From: Rhododendron vialii
Taxonomy: Eukaryota; Streptophyta; Magnoliopsida; Ericales; Ericaceae
DNA: 64,000 nt
Assembly: GCF_030253575.1 (NCBI RefSeq)
Contig: NC_080568.1
Span: 28,850,001 to 28,914,000, forward strand
Direction of reading: 5' to 3'
A program made the position numbers and the translations under genes. The notes under the pieces are model-generated. The model was not told where the DNA came from. It saw only the letters and a list, made by a program, of their open reading frames with translations, and did no database searches. Numbering within the stretch: the stretch's first letter is position 1; each line of letters begins with the position of its first letter. Positions 34,967 to 53,351 of the stretch are shown here, in pieces.

Positions 34967-35099
34967 AGGACAATGACGGCCAATAACCTGTTTTGATAAT
35001 TAATACCCGCTAAGGACATGCTGAGAATATTTATTAATGCTGAAAATATTATTGACGGGTATTAATTATTAAAATACGTGCTGGGCCTTCATTTTCCCA
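34967..35099. mobile_element. Small MITE, family X, copy 1
   Basis: Flanked by the perfect 8-bp repeat TAGAGGAC (34959-34966 and 35100-35107). Ends AGGACAATGACGGCC and GGCCTTCATTTTCCC are inverted. The core GGTATTAATTATTAAAATAC is shared with copies at 48396-48500 and 53220-53351. 133 bp, hAT-type target size. Confidence 0.7.
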
Positions 35100-35365: not shown

Positions 35366-36338
35366 TCTCCGATGCGAAACCCAAGAATTAATGGATGGCC
35401 AATTAATTCTACTGGTTGGCCGATGTACGGTAGAAAGAGAGAGAAGATAAGAAGCCATGGTCATACCTCTTTGCCGAAAACTCATGTGTCGAGGGATTTT
35501 TCAGCCATTAAATTTAAAACATTAAAACAAAAATTCACTCAATTCAACAGCGAGAAAATCCCAAGAGGAGATTTTTGGGACGGGGGATCGACCCCAGGGG
35601 GACAAATGATGACAGGTCACTCAAACATTAATGATAGTAGGTCCCAAACATTTATGAACATACGAAGTGTAAACGTCGTGGTTTACAGGGCACCATACAA
35701 TACGTACAAAACAAAGCCTCCCCTCATTGCATCGATCTGCTCTCACTGGCAACTAGCTAGGAGTACAACAACGACAGGCTTCACCACATGCTATCGTAGC
35801 AGACGTATACTCTACTCCGACACTTTCTCTGAATCGTTGGTGCGATCACTCTAGCTAGTTTGAAAAGTGTGGCCCCCATGCAGCCCCTCCCTAGCATCCG
35901 AGTCGTGTTCGTTGCCGAGATGAAATATAGACTGTTGGATTGCCGAACCGGATGACCCGAATGTACACGGCATGTCCCCAGGTTCGTTGTCGAGATGAAA
36001 TATAGACTGTTGGATTGCCGAACCGGATGACCCGAATGTACATGGCATGTCCCCAGGTTTGAAGGCAGACATTTACATTAAATGCCTGCCTCTCTCAGAT
36101 TGCAAATCTAACCCGAATTTAGTTCAAATGGAGTAGCTTGGTTCGGTGGTTCAAGTCTCAAAGAAAATTAAAAGACAATTCATAGGATTTGATTTGTGAA
36201 TTTACCTACACTAATGATTCCGGTTCCAAACTACAGTTCTATCTATGTGTAATGATAAAAAAACCAAACTTATTTGATTCTATTGTCAGGAACGGACTCA
36301 GCATTCAAGGGTAGTGTGAGCGAACATTAATAATATTA
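35366..36338. other. Intergenic DNA with an in-frame 75-bp tandem duplication
   Basis: Apart from the tandem repeat at 35907-36056, the stretch has open frames on both strands but no sequence I recognise. Confidence 0.45.
35907..36056 (-). repeat. 75-bp tandem duplication, 25-residue units on the minus strand
   Basis: Two head-to-tail units (35907-35981, 35982-36056) differ at about two positions. The length is a multiple of three. The minus frame (35851-36072) stays open and repeats PGDMPCTFGSSGSAIQQSIF plus HLxNE. The plus frames contain stops. It may be a stray fragment of an unrecognised gene; no family could be assigned. Confidence 0.8.
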
Positions 36339-36798
36339 GAGCATTCACATTGTAATAAGCAAATTGGTATGGATAAATAAACTTAACAACAATGCTAAAA
36401 AAATACCTCACATTGTAATAATCAAAGTTACAACAAATCTTTTAGCAAATAACCAAATTCCACCTATTCCATAACCAAACTTAACAACTTTTACCAATAA
36501 CCAAAACTCAATAATCAAACCCAATAACCAAATTCAAAACTAAAAAACTAAAAAACACCCCACATTAGAATCGTCTCATCGAGAAAAATAATTTGGTGTG
36601 GTCGGGTGCGTGATTAGAACTCGTTTGTAATTCGACATAGGTGCATTGCGTATTGTGGGGGTTTTTTTTTATAGGGATGCAAAAATAACCAATGTGGAGG
36701 TAAAGTTTGTTAAGTTTGATTATGCACTAAATGGATAATCAAATGCTGCCGTTACACATTTTGGTTATTAATTTTAATTATTTCCATTGCGGATGCTC
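36339..36798. mobile_element. Tourist-like MITE, 460 bp
   Basis: Ends GAGCATTCACATTG and CCATTGCGGATGCTC are inverted, flanked by TTA (36336-36338 and 36799-36801). AT-rich core with repeated AACCAAA/TAACCAAAC words. This fits PIF/Harbinger-derived MITEs. Confidence 0.7.
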
Positions 36799-36955
36799 TT
36801 ACAACAAAAATTAGTCCAACTTGCAAAAATACATGTCCTATCTTGGTCCTAGTGTTTCATCTGAATGTAAAAGTCAAGAAAATAATGTCGACGCTCTTTC
36901 ACGAGGTAAAGTGCATATTTTTTAAAATGGAACTTAGATAAGCATTAACCTACTA

Positions 36956-37168
36956 CTCTCCCCGTCCCATAATGTTTGTCCGATTCACAAATAAGTACGT
37001 AAAAATAATATAATTTTTGCAAGAATAATTAAAAGATTTTTCAACAATTTACTAGATATTGATGAGTTCTTTCAATTTATGAAAATTTTTGAATTTTTCC
37101 TTGAGAGAAATGTATTATTTTTGAGTTCTTGTTTTGCAGATCAGACAAATAATTTGGGACGAAGGGAG
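36956..37168. mobile_element. Stowaway MITE
   Basis: CTCTCCCCGTCCCATAATGT and ATTTGGGACGAAGGGAG are inverted ends flanked by TA (36954-36955 and 37169-37170). 213 bp. Confidence 0.8.
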
Positions 37169-37526
37169 TATGTTTTTTTATTTTAAAATCAAATTTAACT
37201 TCAAAAATAATCATAAAGCACTAACAGATATCAATTAAGTATTAAGCTATTAAATTTATCTTCAGAATAATTAAGTAAATCAAATTTATCACGAGATCAA
37301 GTAAACAATCTGAGAGAGGTTAGCAATTAAATGCCTTCAAATTTATCTCGAGATCAGGTAAGCCACAAATTATTTGACACTACAGTTGGGGAGAGTGGGT
37401 TTTGTGGCTGAAAATTTAGAGATGTCACACACATAAACCTTTAAATTTTATGTCATGTCCCAATATTTGAAGCCAAAGTTGGAGTTGCTCCAAGGGGCAT
37501 GCTCGTTATTGGGAGAACAAAGAAGA

Positions 37527-37736
37527 GGAGATCCGGATCCTCTCCGGTTCATGTTTTGGACTGGAGAAAAAAGTCCTGATCGAGACCGTTTATCTGTTGC
37601 AATTAATAGTTTAGATGTATTTTCAATAGTTTAGATGTATTTTTAAACTTTGACCTTCTTACCAATCAACTAATGGACGGTCACGATTATGATTGTCTTC
37701 TTTGGTTCAAAACATAAACCGTAGAGGATCCGGATC
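37527..37736. mobile_element. MITE with 8-bp target duplication
   Basis: Flanked by AAAGAAGA (37519-37526 and 37737-37744). Ends GATCCGGATCCTCTCCGGTT and its inverse, AACCGTAGAGGATCCGGATC, pair. A short internal tandem of AATAGTTTAGATGTATTTT occurs at about 37601-37642. 210 bp. Confidence 0.7.
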
Positions 37737-38136
37737 AAAGAAGAAGGGAGGAATAATCTTAAATTGGATAAGGAAGAATTCCACTCTTTATTCCCATAAA
37801 GCCAAATCAAGTATTACCCAACACTTCTTAATTCCCACATAATTTTCCTATCACAATCTCATCTTTTTCCCTCATTCAAGAATTACCTCTCAAAGATTGA
37901 TTTCAGAGTCGACCAAATATGCCGAAAGATTGTTCCCGGCCAAGGGGACGAAAGGATTGGTCTCCGAAGATTGTTCAAGGTGTGTAGAAATTGGTGTTGA
38001 CCCTATGAATAGTGTATATATCAAAAATACAAAAAATACAAAAAAAAAAACACATACGTGCCTAATAGAATTGTGGAGACAAGCGGGTTTTATTGAGGTA
38101 TTTTTGGGTCAACTTTACACACTTACTATTCACATG

Positions 38137-38253
38137 TATATATAATCGCCATTGGCCACGCATACACAACACACACTCCCCAAATATCAAACTCCAATCC
38201 CCCAACATTGCAACACCCTCTCTCTCTCTAGAACACCTCTCCCTCCTTCCCTT

Positions 38254-38299
<46 letters not shown>

Positions 38300-38323
38300 C
38301 GTAGTTCTTAGCTTCCAAGAAAA
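38137..38323 (+). promoter_or_regulatory. MYB core promoter and CT-rich 5'UTR
   Basis: TATATATAAT at 38137-38146 is a good TATA box, with an inverted CCAAT (ATTGG) just after it. The leader is CT-rich and ends with a pure (CT)19 run at 38259-38297, 26 bp before the ATG. CT/GA runs in plant leaders are known binding targets of BPC/GAGA-type factors; a role here is inference. Confidence 0.6.
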
Positions 38324-40992
38324 ATGGAAAGAGGAGAGAAGGGACACAGAAAAGGGTTGTGGACAGAGGAGGAAGACAGAGTTCTCATGGACTACATAAG
38401 GCTGCACGGCAAAGGACGGTGGAATCGAGTTGCTAAAGTCACAGGTTTATTTAATTTAAGTCGACCATTCAAAAGTGGAGTAAACGGATTTTAGTTATAA
38501 AAAAAAAAAACAGGGAATTTCTTGGATTTGCGACAGGAATTTATGTTCAAATTTTTTTAGTAACTGGAAATACTTTGGTTACAATTGGGTTTTTGTTGTT
38601 GTTGTTGTTGTTATGAGGATAGGATTGAAGAGGTGTGGAAAGAGTTGCAGATTAAGGTGGATCAATTACCTGAGTCCGAGCATTAAACATGGCAATTTTT
38701 CAGAGGAAGAAGACGATCTCATTATTCGGCTGCATAATCTACTGGGAAACAGGTTTTCTTCTTTTCCAATTTGCATAAATACTCCCTTTTTTTTTTTTTT
38801 TGGGAAATACAGGATGTCCCGTGCTAGAATAACAATGCTACTTACACTTCTACCGACCACTTTCCTTTTACATATGAGTCAGTCTCACACATTTAATTGT
38901 AAGATAGGTCTCATACATGTGTGAGAGATGAGTGATTGGAGAGTGGCCGGTCAGCGTGTCCGTAGTATTATTGATAAACTAAAGACCTAAAGAAAGATTA
39001 GGTGAAAAAAAGAGGCTTTTTATTTTCTTTGGTGGGGGCTGGAGTTATGGAAATGAGAAGACAATGACTAGTTTATTTAGTTCAAAAAAAAATCACTTTT
39101 GTTCGAGTATTTCATTGACAAAAGTAGACTCTTATTCAGGAACGAATGGAGTATTTATCTTTATGGTTTTCCTCCTTATCTTCTTAATTCAACTAGTTGC
39201 ATTTAATTTCTACATCTTAGGTACCCAGTTGAGAAATTGAATAATGCAGCAAATTCAAACAAATAAAAAAGAGTGCAATAGTACAAATGAAAAGTGCGAA
39301 AACCAATTCTATATCGGTTTTCCTATCGCCTTTTTTTTTTTTTCGGGATTGATTTTACACTCTTTTTTCTTTCATAACACGTGCTTGTTTATTTCTAATC
39401 ACGTGAATATATAATGTTGCCCGCTCAAGAATGAAGCAAGAACTATATTATAATTTATAAATGTACATGAATAAAGAAAGAAATTGAAAACACAATAAGA
39501 GAGTAGAAATCTTCCTCTCTTTTTTTTTTTTGTCTTCTCTGTTTTCTTTAGGAAATGTGTCTTTCCCATTAGCTGTTTCACTGAAATGAAGTTATGAGAA
39601 AATTAATACTTGTCATCAGAGCACCCATGTGGTACTCTAGGAGCCTTCTTCACCACACGCCTACACCCAATGTGTGGTGTAGTAGGTGCCCCCAGACGGT
39701 GCTCTAGGGACACTGATTAATTGCTCGATGTTACGGCAATCACTGTTGTTTTTTCCTACTTCTATTCCTATTCTGCTATTCATGTCTCCTTTCAACTCAC
39801 ATGTATTCATTTGTAGTTATCGTTGATTGACAACATATAGTACATGGCATTCAAATACCTGTGTAGGATTACACACACTCACTAGTTTGTGTGGTAGTAG
39901 CATTTTTTTTTTTTAATAACCGGATATCCGGGTTAGTTTGGGCGTACCTCGACTAATTCCGGGGTCCTGAAGGTAACGACCAGGCATAATCTCCGGTGGC
40001 CCCAATGTTTGGAATGTTTGACCTCCGTAAGAATGGAACCTAGGACCTCATGTAAGTTTTTGCCCAAAGGAGCAATTAATGCTACGCGTACTGACTTTGG
40101 TGCACAAATTCAGATTCGATTAAAAATATGGTCGGAATGATCTAATGAATGTGATTCTAATTAAACACTTCTGTATCTGGATTTATGCACAGTGCTAAAC
40201 TTTCCGCATATACAGTGGGGTGATATAGATTTTGTGGTTCTTTTATCTTCCTTTAAATTTAAAACACCTACATTAAATGTCAATTTGATGCCACACTATC
40301 CAAGATAAGTTTTTTATTTTTTGGGTTTTTGTAAATTAAATGATAGTAAAACAGAAAATTAAATGATAATAAAATTAAATGCCACACTATCCAAGAATAT
40401 ATTAATAAATGATTGTAAAACAGAAAATGTTGTACACAAATTCTGCACAGAAGGTCCTTCAGTTTTCATTACAGTCCCTGCTCCAATATTTTTTTTTGGG
40501 ACCATATCCCCTACTACAGTATTACCGTTAATTATATTTGTTTAATCAAATTGAATTAGTGAATTCTAATCTTGTAGGTGGTCTTTAATAGCTGGGCGAG
40601 TGCCGGGACGAACGGACAACCAAGTGAAAAACCACTGGAACACTCATTTGAGCAAGAAGCTCGGAATAAAAAGGAAACAGAGAGCCACACTCAAAGCTCC
40701 ATCAGAACCACTCCCACCAAAAGGAAAAGGAGTGGAGAACGTTAGTGCCCCCGCCGACACATGTTTTGAGCTACCATCTAACAACAATGTTAGAACCGGT
40801 GACCAAAAGTACATCGACGATGGCGCCCAGGGTGAAGTCGGGTACTTTGGATTAGAAGAGCCCATCACAGCGAATGAGGGTTACGAAAACCCTTTCTGGT
40901 TTACTAATGATGAGAGTAATCTAAGTGCTCCTACTTTAACTCAACTCTTGGATCAACATTCTCTGGACAATTTGTTTTGGCATGGCTTGTAA
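38324..40992 (+). CDS. R2R3-MYB transcription factor, WER/GL1-like
   Basis: Exons 38324-38444, 38623-38752 and 40578-40992 give 221 aa. The introns sit at the two canonical R2R3-MYB positions (codons 41 and 84). R2 spans about 10-60 with Trp 13, 33 and 53; R3 spans about 63-111 with Phe66, Trp85 and Trp104. The bHLH-contact signature [DE]Lx2[RK]x3Lx6Lx3R is complete at 72-91 ([20 protein letters not shown]), so it probably works in a MYB-bHLH-WD40 complex in the nucleus. After KKLGIKRKQ the tail is acidic and ends in a Leu/Trp-containing stretch ([18 protein letters not shown]) that recalls the C-terminal activation motif of WEREWOLF, GL1 and MYB23. That motif and size suggest subgroup 15, with roles in epidermal cell fate; other bHLH-binding subgroups are not excluded. 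A 35-bp piece of exon 3 (40664-40698) recurs at 46328-46362. Confidence 0.93.
39900..40076 (-). mobile_element. SINE (Au-like) in MYB intron 2
   Basis: On the minus strand it reads from TTTGGGCAAAAACTTACATG through a B-box-like GGTCCTAGGTTCC, then GGAATTAGTCGAGGTACGCC and CGGATATCCGGTTATT, and ends in a poly(A) tail (T-run at 39903-39914 on the plus strand). The 3' module is shared with the relics at 50-130 and 8295-8345. The family name is a recollection, not a database result. Confidence 0.55.
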
Positions 40993-41327
40993 TCCAAATT
41001 CTTTGCCATCATTTTACTTCTCTGCAATATAATCTTCATTTCGTTGCCTTTTTCCGGTTGTTTTATGCGTATGAGCGAGTGCACGTGTTCAGAATTTGCC
41101 CGAGTCCTTCCGTAGAGGAACGATAATTAGGCTACTATTGAACGCCCATTCTCACTGGAAGGGTTGAACACCAACCAACCTACCCTGCCCGTTATGTTGC
41201 TGCCAATGTAGTCAATAACCGATTATCAACAGCCTGATTTCAGAACATGTATTTCCTGTGCAATATTGTGACATTTCGGATACAAATAGAGCGGTCCTAC
41301 ACATGTTTGGGGCCATTTTTCTGTACG
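40993..41327. other. MYB 3' region
   Basis: Downstream of the MYB stop. No gene or repeat was identified. Confidence 0.5.
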
Positions 41328-41446
41328 GTAAATGATATTGACACTTCAAAAATTGATGCAGGCACTCCACAATCAGTGTAATTTCAAAGCCATTTTTTTT
41401 TTTGGAGTGCCTCCATCAATTTTTGGAATGTCAATATCATTTTCCT
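41328..41446. mobile_element. Short palindromic MITE, copy 2
   Basis: Same structure as 11789-11911: GGTAAATGATATTGACACTT at the left, inverse GTCAATATCATTTTCC at the right, and GGCACTCC / GGAGTGCC inside. The hAT element at 41447 is inserted at its right edge. Confidence 0.7.
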
Positions 41447-42150
41447 TAGGGGTGAGCAAAATAACCATGAAACCGTGAATCCAATCCAAACCGAATAGTT
41501 TGGTTTGGTTTTTAAATGATGTGGTTAGGTCTCGGTTTAAAAAAAAATTGAAACCATGTTAAATGATTTGGTTTATGGATTTACGTTAATGGTTCTGGTT
41601 CCAAACTGATCCGAACCGTGTGATATATGTGCATATATATAATTTGTTTAGATATACTTCATAAACTTAATTTCCTTATCTAATACTCTATTCCACCACC
41701 CTATTCTTTTCTTTCACTTCCAATATTAATTTCCTCAACTTCTTATTCCTACAATTTCATTACGCTAAACATACACGATTTGGACTTAGTAAAGTGATTT
41801 CCTACTCTTTTTTCTTGGTAAATTATTTTCTGATGCATTCCATTCTTATTTTAGTTGGTTGATGTTAGTGAGTTTTAATGATTTTAATATACTAATTTCA
41901 ATATAACTTTTAGTCTAAGTTATCTATGCAATTTTAAGTACTTAAAATAGTTTATAGTGATGATAGCTCAATTTTAAGCAAACCGTGGTTCAAAGCCGAA
42001 ACCAAACCGCCTTTGAATGGTTTGGATTGGTTTGGTTTTATGAATTTTATGGGTTGATTTGTTTATCTAAATTCATAATCCGTAAGTAATAGTTTGGTTA
42101 TTGGATTACTATAAAACCAGACCAATCCGATCCATGCTCGATCACCCCTA
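41447..42150. mobile_element. Non-autonomous hAT element, 704 bp
   Basis: Ends TAGGGGTGAGC and GATCACCCCTA are inverted and flanked by a perfect 8-bp duplication ATTTTCCT (41439-41446 and 42151-42158). Subterminal regions carry many AACCAAACC / GGTTTGG words. No transposase frame. Good hAT-superfamily structure. Confidence 0.85.
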
Positions 42151-42158
42151 ATTTTCCT

Positions 42159-44166
42159 TGCACACGTTTCGAACTTTTCTTAATTTTCTAATAACTTTGT
42201 CAATGGCTTGAATTCTTGTGGTAGACAATCATACCCTTTTGAAATTATTCAAATGATATTTGTCTTGACTTAAAGAGAGAGTACCATCAATTGACAAAGA
42301 AATCCGAATATAGAGGTTTTCGGATTTGTTTGCTTGTAAGAAGAAGAGACAGTATCCTTAACCATTTTTGTCATGTAAATCTGAGGAAGACAGGGACCTT
42401 TAAGGCCGAGTATAAGCCAGAACAACAAAGAGCCAAAGGGGTTCACTTATCATGATCTTGTGCAAAATCACACACGTGAGAGGTGAGGTTATCATTTGGG
42501 GCACGTGCATAAATCACTCTAGAACTTCATCTTCTGTTATGAAACATCCTAATGAACAAATTCAAGATAAAAGCTTCATTAAAGATATCGTTGCAATAAG
42601 AAGGGGAGAAATATGCTTGCAAATTTTAGTCTAATTCAAATTGAGTAAAAATTTGGGTAAAATTCAATTTGGTATAGGGTTTTTTTAATACAAAAAATGG
42701 AGAAGGTTATATTTATAATAGCCTAGCTACACTTACATAACGAAGTTCATTACAAATATTTAGGACAAAGCCAAACTAATCATCTAACTACTATAAGACG
42801 AGAAAAACACAAGGCAGCGATGTCTTTCACCCCGACCCAGATATTGAGCATGACGCAAACAACGACACTCGTAATCTGATGTATATTCATATATCTAGAA
42901 TCAGCGATCTCAAAAGGGATAAAGTGCTACAAAAAATAAAACACCATTAAATACCCAGACGATGACTCCAACCAAGTATGAACGCACCTATGAACCTCCA
43001 AAAAATTACAGATCTGCTAAGTCACCACAAGTTGCCCCGCCAAAGATATCATGTAGGCCGCGTAAGAGCACTGTTGACACATATATCATTGTGAAACAAT
43101 ATCGTCTCTGAAAGGACATGATATATAGACGAAACTAACTCTCGAAAAGACGAGAGATACTCCGTAAAGCTCTCACAAATCATGACAAGTTGTTGATCTG
43201 AAGAGACGAAAAACAAAACTATACCATGCCTTCCCCTCTCACCGTCGTACAAGGGTGTGAAATTCTAGGGGGAGAGAAAGGGAGGAGAAAGATATTTGTG
43301 GCAGCTAGAATTTTGATCCGCAACCGAATTATTTCAGTTTACCCTCAATCACCGGACCCTCAAAATTAAAATCCTCAATCTGTTATTATGAAAATTCTTC
43401 TGAATACAATGTTGAATTGGCGTCATTCTCCTTAATTTCTCTTTGTATATTTTCCATTCTTTTTCACTTTTTGTTAGATTCACATCATAATAATCTGAAA
43501 AGTAAAAAATTATAACTTAAAGCAGAAAATAATTCAATAAAAAGACGAAAAAATACCAAACAATTGTCTTTTTTGTTTAACGTGTCATCTTATACTCTTA
43601 TACAAATTTTTTTTCAATAGCGGTTCACATTTTTATATTTTTCTGATTTCTCTCGTCTAGACGAATGATTAACTCAAAAAATTACAATGAAAAACTCAAC
43701 AAAAAGTTACGATGAGTAACAAAAAAAAAATAAAAAAAATTGAGACAAAGAAGTACGGTAGAATGGAGCCAAATCACTCATCACCTCAAGAGATCAAACA
43801 GAGAGAGAGACGGGATGAGAAATCAGTGATGGGGCCGGAATCTTTGGTGAAATCTAGCGATCCTAAATAACGTCCCAAGTAAAGCAATGGGACATGGTAA
43901 AGTTTTACAGCTACGCACTCACAGAGTACCCATTACAGCTCAGCTAGCTGCATGTGTGAAAAAGTTCTCATCACAAATGAGGCAAAAGGACTTGTCTTTC
44001 TGTTCCAAGAAAAGAACAACATCTACAGAAGGGAATGGCAATGGGTACTTGACCTCTTGTCATTTTGCCCTGCTACACCGGGCATTCAACGCTATTTGGT
44101 TTTCAGTTCCCTCATGTTTTGGTACGAGTAATAGTTTTTGCCTTGATGATGATAGAGCTACCTTTT

Positions 44167-44219
<53 letters not shown>

Positions 44220-44765
44220 GTCACCCATCTTTCCCTTTCCACTACAAAATCATTGGTCCGGAGAAAGGTATGGGGGAGGAAAGGTGATTTGGTCCTTTCT
44301 CTATATGTTGGATTCGGATCGGAAATGCTGTGTTTAAAGTGTAGTTCTTTTGGATGTTCACTGTGGGCTGAAACTTTTTGGAGAAAATTTGGCAGTGCTA
44401 CGAACACAGGTTGCTAGCTTTAAATCACAGCTCCAACCACAACTGCATCGAGAGCTATTCGATGCATGTGGATCCACACGCATCAAACGGCTCCAAACAA
44501 AGTTGTGTCCGGAAGTTGTGTTTCTCGACTTATTGAGAATTTTTTTTTGAATTATCCATTCAAGATCAAGACCCTTCTCACATGTGATCACATGAAGAGA
44601 AAATCATTGGATACTCAAGAAATATTATGTGTCGTTGTCTACGAGATATTTCCATCGAGGGACGGCAACATATATAATGTGTGTTACCTTTGGCTTCTTT
44701 AACTACCAACAAAGGTGGCTAGCGTCGGTATCCCACCTGCAAAGATTAATTGTCACCGCGTCATT
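42159..44765. other. Intergenic DNA, no recognised gene
   Basis: No recognisable protein. Frames at 43887-44417 are open partly because they cross the CT microsatellite. The DNA is AT-rich with a (CT)n run at 44170-44215. Confidence 0.5.
44170..44215. repeat. (CT)23 microsatellite
   Basis: Uninterrupted CT run. It creates long Leu/Ser and Arg/Glu frames on the two strands that are not genes. Confidence 0.95.
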
Positions 44766-46329
44766 GGTCGAGAGTAGTGAATATTTGATTATTTTAGCTA
44801 CTATGTTCACTACAAAAGCCTGACTTTTTCAAGCATTTAAAGATTTTTTATACCATAATAATATCATGCGAAATTACCACACGGTACTTTGGGAGTAATT
44901 TGTTTGAATGGATTGAAATTTGGAGTGGATTGGCAAAGGTTACCCCCGCCCCCCCGGCCTTGGGTTTGATAATTCCCCGTTCTTGGGGATTCATACACTC
45001 CCCTATTGTAATATTCCTTTTGCACAAAACATGAGCTTTGGTGGGTCACTCTTTTCAGAATTAAAAGTGGACCACTCTTTTCAGAATTAATGAGCAACAT
45101 GCCAACATGATACACGGGATTCCCACTCTCTCTCCCCCGCGAACGCCAAGTTTTTTCAACAAACAATCATTTTATAATCATAAATACTGACACAAACTTA
45201 CGCACATTTACATTAGGATTCATACACATTATACCTCAAATGTATATGGACTCCACCAAAAGATGTGAATGTATGTAAATATTTTTTGGTTGAACTTTTG
45301 GAAAAACGCGGTGGTTTAACAAGTTAGCACCAGAACACACACACAAACTTTTTCTTACGCAGCTTTGTACTTCTTTGGTGATGTGGCGAGAGAAGATTGG
45401 CTTGGAGGAAAATGTGGATTTTTGGACAGCTGGTGTAAGGAACTTTTTATTAAGAGTATACGGATTAATGTATTAGGTGTTCAATTGTGATTTTATTTTA
45501 TTTTATTTTATTAAGAGTGTTCAAAGAAGACATAAAATGAAATTACTACATGTATAATATGTATTTTCGGGTGTTCAATTGACAACCCAAGCTTGGCTGT
45601 AGAGCCACCAATGATTTTAGGCTCCCGAAAAGTCAAGACTGGCTATTCATGGGATCCTTGAGCCAGCCCTCCCCAATACTTGATTCTGTTTTCACTTTTC
45701 ATACCAAAACAAATTAAGTGTTCAAAAAAAAAAAAACATAAATGAAATTACTACACGTATAATATGTATTTTTGGGTGTTCAATTGACAACCCAAGTTTT
45801 GGCTATAGAGCCGCCAATGGTTTTAGGTCCCCGAAAAGTCAAGGTTGGCTATTCGTGGGATCTCTTAGCATAGGTGGAGAGACATAGAGACAAGGGTGGG
45901 CAGCCGACTCCATTGGCTATCAAATTTTCTTAGAGATAGGTATAATTTTTACCCAATTTTTACTAATTTTGATCCCACTTTAAAATTTATTTTTGCTCCA
46001 GCCCATATAAGGGTTTTGTAGTTAGGAAAAAAGAGAGTCAAATAGAATCTTCACCCACAAAATTTCCAAACATAGTGCTAATTTGTTCGTTCCTCAAAAC
46101 AAATCAAGGGTTTTTGAAACCATTACAAACGAGGCTATCATCCATAGTTTTCAAAGTATGAAAAGTCGTCGAGATTGTAAATCGAAGCTACATTTTATTA
46201 TTAATATATATCTACTTTTTGATTAACTTGTTAATCCTAAGTGTTTCTTTCAATTAGCAACTAGAAAAGTGAATTACACATAGTTTAAAGTTCTGACCCC
46301 ACTTATCGAAAAACCTAGCTTCGCCCTGA
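44766..46329 (+). repeat. Tandem duplication, copy A
   Basis: Runs from GGTCGAGAGTAGTGAAT to CGCCCTGA and aligns along its length with 46380-48599. Copy A lacks the 789-bp palindromic element and the small MITE of copy B. It has an extra internal duplication: 45530-45665 and 45735-45868 both carry GAAATTACTACA ... GGGTGTTCAATTGACAACCC. No coding sequence was recognised, and the nature of the unit is unknown. Confidence 0.85.
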
Positions 46330-46379
46330 ATAAAAAGGAAACAGAGAGCCAAACTCAAAGCTACTATGTTTAAAAACCT
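46328..46379 (+). other. Filler DNA at the tandem junction, partly a copy of MYB exon 3
   Basis: 46328-46362 matches 40664-40698 of MYB exon 3 (GAATAAAAAGGAAACAGAGA, then GCCAAACTCAAAGCT) at 34 of 35 positions, same orientation. 46361-46379 (CTACTATGTTTAAAAACCT) resembles 46412-46434 inside copy B minus a CTAC. Joins share GA with the end of copy A and about three bases (GCT) between the two fillers. Confidence 0.75.
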
Positions 46380-46944
46380 GGTCGAGAGTAGTGAATCTTT
46401 GATTATTTTAGCTACTATGTTTACTACAAAAACCTGACTTTTTCAAGCATTTAAAGATTTTTTATACCATAATAATATCATGCGAAATTACCACACGGTA
46501 CTCTGGGAGCAATTTGTTTGAATGGATTGGCAAAGGTTACCCACCCCCTCTTGGGTTTGATAATTCCCCGTTCTTGGGGATTCATACGCTCCCCTATTGT
46601 AATATTCCTTTTGCACAAAACATGAGCTTTGGTGGCCCACGTCTTTGTCAATTGGGCCTTAAAAATGGACCACACTTTTCAGAACTAATGAGCAACATGC
46701 CAACATGATACACGGGATTCCCACTCTCTCCCCTGCGAATGCCATGTCGATTCAACAAACAATCATTTTACAATCCCAAATATTGACACAAATTCACGCA
46801 CATTCATATTGGAACCCATACGCACTACACCTCCTGTTTGTATGGGCCTCATCAAAAAATGTGAGTGTATATAAAATGTGTGTAAATATTTTTGGTTGAA
46901 CGTTTGGGAAAAAGCGGTGGTTTAACAAGTTAGCACTAGAACAC

Positions 46945-47733
46945 GGACCCAGGGGCGCAGGAGCCCCTGCCCACACCCACAAAACGGCAACGTTTTGGTT
47001 AAATTAAAAATTCCAACCACCGATTTGCAATCCTATGAAGCAGAAACGTGATTATGAGAGCTTTAGAGACAAAATTTGATTATGTCTCTTTAGAATAATA
47101 TGATCAGAATAGTAAGATCTCCACACCCGTTCAAACAAATTAAAAATTGAACCACTTAATTTTTTAACCATATTTTTTAATATATAAACGGTCTCAAAAA
47201 ATTAGTGCTCAAATTTTCACCCCGTTTGAATCGGTGCAAAAATCTTGTTATTCTTATCATATTATTCTGAAGGGTCGTAATTCATTTTTATCTCTAGGGC
47301 TCTCATATTAAGTATATATTCTTTATTTAGGACCATATCGAGCAGAAATGTGATTATAAGAGCTCTAGAGATAAAAATGAATTACGACCCTTCAGAATAA
47401 TATGATAAGAATAACAAGATTTTTGCACCGATTCAAACGGGGTGAAAATTTGAGCACTAATTTTTTGAGACCGTTTATATATTAAAAAATATGATTAAAA
47501 AATTAAGTGGTCCAATTTTTAATCTGTTTGAACGGGTGTGAAGATCTTACTATTCTGATCATATTATTCTAAAGAGACATAATCAAATTTTGTCTCTAAA
47601 ACTCTCATAATCACGTTTCTGTTTCATAGAATTGCAAATTGGTGGTTGAAATTTTTAATTTAACCAAAACGTTACAGTTTTGTAGGTGTGGGCAGGGCTC
47701 CTGCGCCCCTGGGGCAGCAGAGCCCCGGGTCCC
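46945..47733. mobile_element. Palindromic (fold-back) element with 9-bp target duplication, MULE-like
   Basis: Flanked by CTAGAACAC (46936-46944 and 47734-47742). Ends GGACCC and GGGTCCC. The left arm from AGGGGCGCAGGAGCCC is repeated in inverse by GGGCTCCTGCGCCCCT on the right, and pairing continues for roughly 350 bp per arm to a small loop near 47310-47350. Each arm is also an imperfect palindrome in itself. Copy A at about 45333-45345 shows the site without the insertion. A 9-bp duplication suggests Mutator-type mobilisation. No coding frame. Confidence 0.85.
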
Positions 47734-48395
47734 CTAGAACACACACACAAAAACTTTTTTTTTACCGAGCTTTGTACTTCTTTGGTGATGTGGCGAGAGA
47801 AGATTGGCTTGGAGGAAAATGTTTTGAGCCGGCCCTCCCCAATACTTGGTTCTGTTTTCACTTTTCATACCAAAACAGATTAAGTGTTAAAAAAAAAAAA
47901 AACATAAAATGAAATTACTACACATATAATATGTATTTTTGGGTGTTCAATTGACAACCCAAGTTTGGCTATAGAGCCGCCAATGGTTTTAGGCCCCCGA
48001 AAAGTCAAGGTTGGCTAGTCGTGGGATCCATGAGCATAGGCGGAGGGATATAGAGACAAGGGTAGGCAGCGGACCCCATTGGCTACCAAATTTTCAAATA
48101 AATATGTATAATTTTTACTAACTTGATCTCACTTTAAAATTTATTTTTGCTCCAACCCATACAAGGGTTTTATACTTGAGGAAAAAAGAGTCCAAATAGA
48201 ATCTCCGCCCACAAAATTCTCAAATGTAGCGCTAGTTTGTTCGTTCCTCAAAACAAATTATGGGTTTTTGAAACTATATATTACAAACGAGACTATCATC
48301 CATCGTTTTCAGAGTATGAAAAGTCGTCGAGGTCAATTGTAAATCGAAGCTACATTTTGTCATTAATATATATCTACTTTTTGATTAACTTGTTA

Positions 48396-48500
48396 GGAAA
48401 AATAACGGCCCATGACAAGTTAAGAACATTTGTTAATGCTGAAAATGTCCTTGGCGAGTATTAATTATGAAAACACGTCATTGGCCGTCATTTTCCCAAC
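48396..48500. mobile_element. Small MITE, family X, copy 2 (absent from copy A)
   Basis: GGAAAAATAACGGCC and GGCCGTCATTTTCCC are inverted ends around GAGTATTAATTATGAAAACA. The matching position in copy A reads AACTTGTTAATCC without it. The flanks fit either a TTA target or a damaged 8-bp AACTTGTT duplication. Confidence 0.7.
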
Positions 48501-48599
48501 TTAATCCTAATTGTTTCTTTCAATTAGCAACTAGAAAAGTGAATTACACATAGTTCAAATTTCTGATCCCATTTATCGAAAATCCTGGCTCCGCCCTGA

Positions 48600-49550
48600 G
48601 CTAGCGCTCCCCTATACTTGGTTTTGTTTTCACTTTTCGTACCAAAACTTTCTCCTTGAGCAATTGACCCATTGAAGAATTCATCAACCAAAAGGGAACA
48701 GATTATAGTCATCTATCACCCAATTGTCAAAACTCATATCCTTTCTGCTACTACAACGAACTTGAAGTCAGGATGAAAACTTGAACATGGAAAACAAAAC
48801 AACATACTCCCCAAGTCAAAATATACTAAGAAAAACTCATATAAAAAAGATGCAAGTTTTTCCTGAGATTGCCACTACCTGTCTACCCATATGCTTTGTT
48901 GTTCACATTCAAAATAGCAACTTGCATTCTGAACATCTCCGACAACGGTCAAACTCTTCAGCTCTACCTCCGTTATGGGTTCCTTCCGCTCTTTCGGGCA
49001 AACGCGTTTGAAGTGCTTGGCAAAAAACCGGTTGGTGCTTTGAATTGCTGCAGCATCGAATCGATTTCTCCGAGTCAATGTAAGTAATACCCCAAAAAAG
49101 TACACATATCGTAAGGTTAGCCAATTACAATATTTAAAAAAAAAAATTTCAAAGGTTAACTATTTATCAACATAGAACAACAATAAACTCATCTTGTGCC
49201 TATCCTTTTTTCACCAATAGTATACAATTTCACTAAGGAATCCATCTTGGGGTCTCACATAAATGAGCCATGAAGTTCATTTTGTTTAAAACATTCTTTT
49301 AAGGGTCCTTTCCAAAATTTTTTTTTTATTTTTATCTCAATTTGATATCTGGAAAGACTTGGTCAATTCATTAAAGTTTTGGTCTCCCTAGGAATTTAAA
49401 GACAAAAAAGGAAATTAAAAAATCAAGTCTTTACAGATATTCGATTGAAATGATTTATGTGGGACTTCGAGATGGGTCCCGCACATAAGCTGTATCGTCT
49501 GTTCTCGAACCAAGGTGGTACGTGCCACCTCCCCCTCTCAGGCCAAAATA
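48600..49550. other. Intergenic DNA between the tandem duplication and the SRO gene
   Basis: A more GC-balanced patch at about 48930-49085 is open on both strands (plus frame with LQLYLRYGFLPLFRANAFEV, followed by AAT|GTAAGT). It could be a stray exon fragment, but I recognise neither translation. The rest is AT-rich. Confidence 0.4.
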
Positions 49551-51475
49551 TCAGAGACGGCTGAGGAAAGGAGAGTTAAGGAAATAAACACACACTACAC
49601 TAACGCATACAGTACTATTAATTTCTCCTTCAAAGTGATTTGAGTTCATGTTAAACGCAGAAAACCACCATATTATTATGAAAGAAAGCCACACCTTATC
49701 TCCGAAAGATTTTATGACTGCAGTCAACAATTTGTCCCCGGCGACCTGCCTTACTCGTCGCACCAATTCATGTCGCGAAATCTTCTTCTCCTAGAATACA
49801 TACAAAATTCCTTCAAAAGGTTCTAAATCTGGAAAAGTATGTGAAACAATCACGCACTTCCCTGTATGCGATCGGTAGTTACTTACTCTATGATGAGCAT
49901 GATACTTGGAGATTAAACTGATGCTATGAGGAGGCAAGAGCTTCGAAAGCACTGGAATCAGAGTCGAAAATGGCATCCACGGCGAACTTGGTTTCCTCAG
50001 TACTGGATCTCCTACCCTTTGAACACCTAATTAATTCCCAAGAAACGAAAAGGAAAGAATCATAAAAACCCACGTTATACCAATGAATCAGATTGACACT
50101 AGGGAGTAAACCAATGTGCTCAGTGCTCACCATTTAAACAGGGAGCTCTGAAACTTATAACATACTCCGGCAATATGTGAGTATCCATGTGGGCACTCCA
50201 CACTATATACTTCTTAGGAGCCGTTAGATTGTCTACACCAGAATCAAACTGTTCGGAACTCGAATGAAACTGTTCTGAACCCGGCTGGACAAGCTCCACA
50301 TTCCCCAGGATAACGCGACACAGCAATACGTGGCTTAGTCCGTTTTCGTCAGCGATTGAGGATTTCACACTATGGCACGAATAAGTTAACAAGTTACGCC
50401 TCTTGTTTTGTGGTTGATCCGATGGATTAGCGATAGAATAGCGGTGAAAAATGCAAGAAAACAAATATTCTTATGCAACTCACATGTGCATGAAGACTTT
50501 CTTGCAAAACACACAAGTGAGATTTTTTTTTTGGTAAACCACAAGTGAGATTTATTCAAATCTCTCTCTCACTTTCTTGCAAAACACACAAGTGAAATTC
50601 TCTAACTAAAGTGGTTATGGATAATTTGACACTCAAAATTCTCTCTCACTTTCCTACAAGGCTACAACTTATTCACAACTCCTAAGCAAGATGATGTTCC
50701 AAACTATCTATTGGAAGTTGTCAGATTATTCTCTGTGAATCAAATACACGAGATACAATAAATTTTCTTTTCTTTTACTTCACTGTATACACTTTTGACT
50801 TTCTACTATTATGTTCTTTTTGATCAAATGGACCACTGAAGATTACAATTATGCATGATAGACAATTCTCATTATTAGATGTATCAAGAAACAATTGAAA
50901 TATGTTCGTGGAAAATGCAATGATTTTGCTTACCTATCGATAGAGGAATCGTCGGGAGAGAGATAGATGCCGCGGCCAAACAACCCCTTGTTCTCGCAAT
51001 GACCAAAGCCATGAGAAACAATCCTCTCAATCTCATCCTTGGAACCACCAAACCAAGCGTACTTCAAGTTTCCATTACCACCACATTTGTTCGCGATTGC
51101 CCTAGCAAAAACACGGAACGATTGAAGCCTGGCTTGTCCTAAAAAACCGGAACAAGAATTCCTGTGGATGGCAACCACTGCGGTTTCCATTCCAAGAGAA
51201 CCCAAACCCGAAATGAACTTCCGTTTGATGATCTCGTGCAGCCTGTCCCCTTCGTCGATTGCGACTAACCCGGGACCGAACAATTGGGGTTGTTCAAGTT
51301 CAATTGTGGGACCAGATATCCCACTTTCACAATCAGAAATCGACGACTCTTTGTCATGATCACGATCTTCACTATTGCTGAAATGACTATCTAATGAAGG
51401 GGTCTTTGTTCTGTGAGAAGATAACCCATTTGCATACCCATCTGTAGCTTCCAATGGAACAGAGGGAGACTCCAT
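49551..51475 (-). CDS. RCD1-family protein, short SRO type (PARP-like plus RST domain)
   Basis: Minus-strand exons 51475-50934, 50369-50131, 50026-49887 and 49790 onward. SRO proteins are plant-specific nuclear stress-response regulators whose PARP-like domain is usually inactive and whose RST domain binds transcription factors. There is no WWE domain, so it is of the short SRO2/3/5 type. Residues 1-60 are acidic and Ser-rich. The PARP-like domain is about 65-258 (ARAIANKCGGNGNLKYAWFG, GLFGRGIYLSP, HVLLCRVILGN, APKKYIVWSAHMDTHILPEY). The RST domain is about 275-338 (IPVLSKLLPPHSISLISKYH, RHELVRRVRQVAGDKLL). Two PARP triad positions look replaced: WFGG where HG is expected, and KKYIV where the catalytic Glu stands in NEYIV. 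The 3' end is uncertain. Reading on to the stop at 49551 gives 386 aa with a hydrophobic, intron-like tail; a donor at AAG|GTGTGG (49694) would end this exon at residue 339, with a last exon I could not find. Confidence 0.88.
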
Positions 51476-51860
51476 TAAAAGGGGTTAAACTGGCTTAATT
51501 ATGCTGTGGAGAAGGGATCAAATATCTGCATATTAACACTCCGAAAATCAGAACCCATATGAAAAGAGAATAAAATCAATTTCGACAACAACTAAAGCGA
51601 TAGGAAATGGGATCATGGGTTCGAATTATCAACGAACAAAAAGGAATTCTATTCGGAATGGTATTCTAATTTTGTTGAAGTGGATTGGAAAGGATCGAGA
51701 ATGGGAATATTTACCACACTAATATGAAGAGAATCTACGCTAACCGCCACGAGTGAGGGAAACTGCGATAAATCCATGAACAGAGTAATTTGTGTAATTG
51801 TGAGTATGTACGATATATATGTGTGTGTTTGAATGGTGTGTCATTTATATATGGATTTGA
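51476..51860 (-). promoter_or_regulatory. SRO gene 5' region
   Basis: On the minus strand a TATA-like TATATAAAT lies at about 51843-51852, roughly 370 bp before the ATG, leaving a long leader that may contain an intron. The distance and context are reasonable, but no transcript evidence exists. Confidence 0.4.
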
Positions 51861-52187
51861 TTAATTGGGACTTGGATTGGGGAAGAAGAATGAGGAAGTG
51901 GGAATGGAGAAGTGGTTTGCAAAAAAACTAACGGAAAACTCCGACCGCCTCACGATTTATGTGCCTCTGTTTCTCCCTCTCCCTCTCTCTCTCTCTCTCT
52001 CTAAAGAAAAATTGTGTACTACTACTTGTTCGAGTGCAGCACGCAGAGTGTATGTTTGGGCGGTCGTTTTACGTTTACCGGGGGCGGCTAAATTAACCAG
52101 AAATGCTAATAAGGGTATTGAGTGTTGACCAAGTTTATAAGGACGGTGGGCCCACTTTGGAGTCTTATACAAATGACTTGAACCGCT

Positions 52188-52425: not shown

Positions 52426-53219
52426 TTATTTATGAGGAACTTCAGAGTGAGCAAAACACAGCGTCTGACACCATCTGTACTGACTTGGCCCTACAAAGAT
52501 ATGTGTGCACCCGATTATGCTTAATTTAAGCCCCCGAACTTTGAATTGAGGTGGAATTCTAATTTTACCCTTGCATTTTCCAGGAGGGACCTAAAATTGC
52601 ATAGAAAGTTATTCACATTCAATTTGGTTTCAATGCACTCTAGAAAGTTATTCACACACACACATTGTTTCCAATTGCAGTTGAATTTGGTTTCTAGAAT
52701 CTATAGATCTTTCTTAAAAATTATATTCTCAATTCATTTATGCCTGGTAGCAATAATGCTACATACACAAAGATTTATCACAATCTATGCATACATATAT
52801 ATATGAGGAGTTGTCTAAAGGAACCTCGGCTTTTTGGACCTTACAGTAGGTTCCACTTTTAATATTTGAATAGAAATCATAATGACTCTATTCGACAAGT
52901 CCATAATTTGGGGTAGAAAGTTTTTTTTTTTTTGTCTTCCTCGACATTTATTTCGCTTGGTATCCTTTTCTTTTCTTCTCTCTCCACTAACTAAAAATCG
53001 GAATATGTTGAGCCTTAATGAGAGGAAGTATGAATGAATGCATGCCTCGCAAGCTTTTCATTCACATGGTGATTATTAATTTGTGGATAAAACTATTTCT
53101 TTTTTAGATAAATAAGTTTCCTAATAAACATGACCAATATACTAGTAGTTTTTAGGGCCTCATGACTATGTGCATGCCCTGCCAACTGAGTGGGAGTTAT
53201 AGATATCAGAAAAACTTTT

Positions 53220-53351
53220 GGAAAAATGAGGGTGAATGACGTATTTTGATAATTAATACTTATCAAGGATATTTTTAGCATTAATAAATATTTTCAGCAT
53301 GTCATTGGCGTGTATTAATTATCAAAACACGTCCTGAGCCGTAAGTTTCTC
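53220..53351. mobile_element. Small MITE, family X, copy 3
   Basis: Flanked by AAAACTTTT (53211-53219 and 53352-53360). Its core GTGTATTAATTATCAAAACA is shared with the copies at 34967 and 48396. 132 bp. Confidence 0.65.

Follow-up and report, generated by a model that had tools for sequence, protein, structure and literature searches.

The 49 bp (46330-46378) separating the two copies of a tandem duplication in Rhododendron vialii are very probably filler DNA, laid down during repair of a double-strand break with an exon of a nearby MYB gene and the duplicated unit itself as templates. The filler consists of two pieces, and their donors and the bases shared at each join were read directly from the alignments (Table 1). 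The window, meaning the whole 64,000-base stretch that was analysed, corresponds to C12:28850001-28914000. The genome searched comprised 532,647,506 bases in 13 contigs.

The duplication is flanked by the MYB gene (open frames 38484-38921 and 40570-40989; PF00249 match) and by a minus-strand frame at 50930-51481. A PARP domain was matched weakly in this frame, at 20 bits where the curated cut-off is 26.7; we take the frame to be an SRO/RCD1-like gene. An Rfam search of 36000-52000 at gathering thresholds returned no match.

Copies A and B align in the same order and have diverged. When A was compared with B by BLAST, the left ends fell at 44765 (A) and 46379 (B), and A 46329 corresponded to B 48599 at the right; the coordinates given for both copies and the filler in the initial annotation were correct to within 1 bp. 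Exactly two copies of the unit were found within the window, both ending at the same hAT-like MITE end (within 0-3 bp, a coincidence that is not provably exact). Differences were counted at 64/626 and 64/660 aligned sites (K2P 0.111 and 0.105, approximately 10%), with two insertions in B and a 241-bp stretch of A omitted from the count. Divergence was lower at the unit start, where 8 of the first 177 aligned bases differed compared with 120/1109 elsewhere (p 0.007, for a 177-base boundary picked after the data were seen). The slowly diverging segment is possibly a conserved non-coding element or a product of regional conversion.

An assembly error at the junction is highly improbable. The approximately 10% difference between the copies, together with the insertions private to B, makes a collapse or false joining unlikely, and the size and scaffold number of the genome suggest, by comparison with the available text of PMC10338486, that the assembly was built from HiFi reads.

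Table 1. Features of the tandem duplication, its filler and its borders (window coordinates)
Feature	Position	Strand	Basis or remarks
Copy A of tandem unit, approximately 1.6 kb	44765-46329	+	BLAST; end 0-3 bp from MITE terminus
Copy B of tandem unit	46379-48599	+	Two insertions absent from A; lacks A's 45416-45657
Ancestral left flank of copy A	44724-44764	+	Joined to unit start in C6 paralogue
Ancestral right flank of copy B, Y piece	48597-48648	+	Homologous to 45656-45710, which comes after X1
Filler piece 1	46328-46362	+	MYB exon match 34/35; GA (left) and AGCT (right) common with neighbouring donors
Filler piece 2, 22 bases	46359-46380	+	Unit +31 to +57 with 5 bp skipped; TG common with unit B start
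Donor of filler piece 1	40664-40698	+	MYB coding exon, just 3' of DNA-binding repeat
hAT-like MITE, right end of copy A	45869-46328	-	Termini, dispersed copies
hAT-like MITE, right end of copy B	48035-48598	-	Broken by insertion at about 48401-48499

Composition of the filler and its donors

Approximately 33 bases of the 49-bp patch derive from the MYB gene, 5.7 kb upstream of the junction. The initial annotation had reported a same-orientation match of 34/35 positions to the MYB exon; this was recounted and stands, with E values of 6.7e-10 in the window and 8.5e-8 in the genome. The donor lies in the open frame 40570-40989, of which residues 3-27 give the PF00249 match.

The remainder had been described as about 19 bp resembling the start region of the unit. 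The source was right and the size was not, since 22 bases are involved and a 5-bp skip divides them. Compared within the window, their donor is 46410-46436 in copy B. The joins overlap, in order, by 2 (GA), 4 (AGCT), 1 (A, at the skip) and 2 (TG) bases, where 2-3 shared bases had been claimed. The summed overlap exceeds that expected from random joining of the donors (p 0.006-0.016); a single 2-bp overlap is common by chance (P 0.16 each). Both donor matches end abruptly.

Chance had been called an unlikely source of the MYB match. This holds against shuffled sequence, in that 1000 mononucleotide shuffles of 46330-46379 gave at most 36.2 bits, compared with 61.9 bits for the real match. Local repetition is not in itself unusual, however: 18/400 random 50-mers from the window match elsewhere in the window at 61.9 bits or more, because the window is rich in repeats and duplications.

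The genome was searched with a 34-mer from the filler, allowing up to 3 mismatches; repeat counts from this pattern search are lower bounds. Two places were recovered, the filler itself (0 mismatches) and the MYB exon (1 mismatch), and the reversed 34-mer, used as a control, was found in 0 places. A better match elsewhere had been named in the initial annotation as grounds for giving up its reading; within 3 mismatches the genome holds none besides the MYB exon, and no other donor for the MYB piece. The search supports the MYB exon as the probable unique donor, as far as 3 mismatches reach.

The filler might instead be left over from a duplicated MYB gene, or belong to a repeat that supplied part of the MYB exon as well. 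Nothing beyond the 35-bp match speaks for such an origin. Only two places in the genome match within 3 mismatches, homology breaks off sharply on either side, and the donor lies inside a coding exon of the MYB gene. A remnant or shared repeat was rejected on the genome search at this stringency, and we regard it as extremely unlikely.

Polarity of the junctions and the MITE border

A paralogue of 44257-44945 is present at C6:40982858-40984398 on the minus strand, interrupted by insertions. Its last stretch crosses the left border of copy A unbroken (44724-44945), and there the unit start and its flank are 89% conserved with C6:40982858-40983071 (L009). As the paralogue is contiguous at this border, the left flank of A is old, and it is B that has the new left junction. 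The right border was polarised by the internal order of the unit, which in A runs X1 (45523-45656), Y1 (45656-45710), X2 (45729-45862) and then the MITE. Another Y follows directly after the MITE of copy B. This places the MITE between an X and a Y, so the right flank of B is old. Taken together, the two borders show, by sequence comparison, that the A-filler-B junction is the derived one and that the insert is missing from the ancestral arrangement so reconstructed.

The initial annotation had expected relatives without the duplication to lack the filler. This is the case for the C6 locus, an old intragenomic paralogue and the sole relative compared, in which neither duplication nor filler was found in the 26 kb read. 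The reading of C6 as part of a larger syntenic block was rejected; 44257-44945 is the sole colinear stretch in those 26 kb, and other matches are out of order. With the derived junction and the result of the genome search, the proposal of repair by template switching or strand invasion with the MYB exon as donor is supported.

The point at which both copies stop matching, CGCCCTGA, had been identified correctly. It is also the end of a dispersed MITE, which the initial annotation overlooked; both units stop 0-3 bp from its terminus. When the genome was searched with the junction, at least 35 matches outside the window stopped at or just before CGCCCTG (40 of 61 candidates were scored, and 35 of the 40 are MITE copies outside the window). 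Sequence was read for 23 of the 35, and L012 and L026 were left out on account of an unresolved 3' end, leaving 21 resolved copies of 300-705 bp. Their ends are CAG(T/G)GGCGGAG...CTCCGCC(A/C)CTG and variants of these. Target duplications of 8 bp (at least 6/8 positions, with ends shiftable by 1) flank 16/21 of these copies from outside the window. Under the same rule, 22/600 mixed-flank pairs scored as duplications; both window copies and both unresolved ones contributed to these 600. Judged by its termini and 8-bp duplications, the family is hAT-like.

The flanks of the two window copies do not match as target duplications (A 2/8, B 4/8). Five resolved copies elsewhere (L013, L016, L023, L028 and L029) also lack such a duplication, and their 5' ends are altered too. 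The end CCTATG occurs in four of the five (not in L029), as in both window copies; L019 ends in CCTATG as well, yet has a perfect target duplication.

The MITE end in B, CGCCCTGAGCTAGC, was compared with the X1-Y1 sequence, GGGATCCTTGAGCCAGC. The simplest reading, of few bases, is that the MITE would once have ended in CGCCCCTG followed by TCCTTGAG and has since lost 7 bp. Such a deletion at the MITE end could explain the 4/8 outer flank of B. Because A has the same shortened end, the 7-bp loss would be older than the duplication. Because the right border of the unit is a hAT-like MITE end, the position of the break may not have been a matter of chance.

This border bears on a second explanation, in which a hAT transposase produced the duplication, or set it off, by reversed-ends transposition: after cleavage at the MITE end, the cut end would have been re-inserted or repaired at the unit start, and the filler would mark the join. 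In the available sections of PMC3744419, maize is described as having nine Ac duplications, and three small natural ones beside other hAT elements, that arose by this route. Like these, the locus has two copies with the same hAT end as the border of each (here within 0-3 bp). Its breakpoint also lies no more than 3 bp from a transposon end, the published criterion for rice excision scars in the text available from PMC5023962; by our estimate such proximity is only mildly surprising in a stretch with several repeat borders. It is unlike the maize duplications, as far as the same sections of PMC3744419 describe them, in the filler at its junction and in the outer 8-bp duplication, which is not intact. 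The 49 bp of filler separate the middle element end from the unit start, leaving no direct join, and no 8-bp duplication matches at the outer element (B 4/8, A 2/8). Moreover, the shortened terminus common to both copies, best read as a deletion that preceded the duplication, would have damaged the end that a transposase needs. With two features agreeing and two not, the locus is not classed as a reversed-ends-transposition duplication, and we consider that origin unlikely. A combined course, in which a hAT cut at the MITE end began the duplication, re-insertion failed and template switching through the gene exon completed the repair, is likewise doubtful, with a rather low probability. Were it true, it could be a regular source of duplications.

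Repair route and timing

The direction of copying, the pathway and whether one event gave both patch and duplication are matters of inference. For templated break repair, the following course is proposed. The broken left end (...CGCCCTGA) at the MITE terminus would have used GA to pair with the MYB exon, which lies 5.7 kb upstream, and approximately 33 bases would have been copied before release. Pairing through AGCT at unit position +31 would then have allowed approximately 22 bases to be copied with the 5-bp skip. After a second release, the shared bases TG would have served to join the end to the beginning of one of the unit copies. The pathway may have been polymerase-theta end joining or synthesis-dependent strand annealing; the scars of the two can be identical.

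In a two-step course, the duplication would have come first and a later break between A and B would have been patched with MYB and adjacent copy-B sequence. The repair chemistry would be the same, and the two courses differ in timing. The two copies differ at two sites in the donor of filler piece 2 (46422 and 46432, B coordinates), and at each of them the filler agrees with B. At 46422 the C6 paralogue is gapped; at 46432, G is present in A and C6, and A (adenine) in copy B and the filler. The latter site is thus polarised by C6, and the filler carries a base derived in B. A later patch is one possible source of this base; others are joint copying of filler and B from a single template, such as the other homologue, and an independent repeat of the change.

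The match of 34/35 between filler and MYB, set against a difference of approximately 10% between the copies, also favours two steps. Against this, a single site is polarised, and joint copying of the filler and copy B from another allele would give the same sharing of bases. The perfect match between piece 2 and B is unremarkable at the divergence of the unit start (P 0.37), and one mismatch or fewer to MYB has P 0.44 under one-branch divergence. A filler clearly younger than the duplication had appeared from joint P values of 0.07 or 0.015 under mean divergence; this was dropped, because divergence at the unit start is slower (8/177) than in the remainder (120/1109). We judge two steps to be quite possible without favouring them. 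The earlier claim, in which the patch is a record of how the duplication arose, may hold, or the patch may record a later repair of the A-B junction, given the B states of the filler.

The repair mechanism is already established and well described in plants, and the scar is ordinary in kind and unusually legible. Patch-mediated tandem duplications in rice were reportedly attributed to break repair by Vaughn and Bennetzen in 2014; the present locus is likewise a tandem duplication ascribed to such repair.

Breaks induced by I-SceI in tobacco and Arabidopsis were repaired with 1-36 bp of filler from one or several nearby sources, and strand invasion with template jumping is one model for such fillers (available text of PMC3289645). 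Templated insertions, or "fillers", are characteristic of polymerase-theta end joining in Arabidopsis, and plant fillers have been interpreted as iterative primer-template switching by this enzyme (PMC10923293, in the sections accessible). The insert described here is similar to the fillers of these two sources, as far as their texts extend, in being short, derived from nearby and joined through microhomology. In size it is roughly comparable with those of PMC3289645, at 49 bp in two pieces against the 1-36 bp given in that text. Unlike them, it sits at the junction of an old tandem duplication and takes most of its sequence from a gene exon 5.7 kb away. In rice, fillers accompanied 58/94 putative DNA-transposon excision events, with a range of 1-123 bp and a mean of 13 bp (PMC4423477, available portion). 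The present filler likewise lies within 3 bp of a DNA-transposon end; in contrast to the excision sites in that portion of the rice study, both copies retain the MITE and no excision is seen.

The locus is a clear natural example of an exon piece placed in intergenic DNA at a duplication junction, still legible after approximately 10% divergence. With a single donor, polarity established on two sides and a border at a MITE, it is well suited to asking whether tandem duplications are seeded by transposon ends.

Further differences between the copies

Copy B alone contains a 789-bp fold-back insertion (46945-47733) that is 93% self-complementary over 46948-47713. It ends in GGACCC...GGGTCC and has 9-bp direct repeats, CTAGAACAC, at its flanks; it resembles a Mutator-type element. 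A further insertion, at approximately 48401-48499 within the MITE of copy B, ends in GGAAAA...TTTTCC and has relatives at 35002-35099 and 53218-53309. The stretch 45416-45657 of copy A, containing X1, is absent from B at the point between AAAATGT and TTTGAGCC; either B lost it or A gained it.
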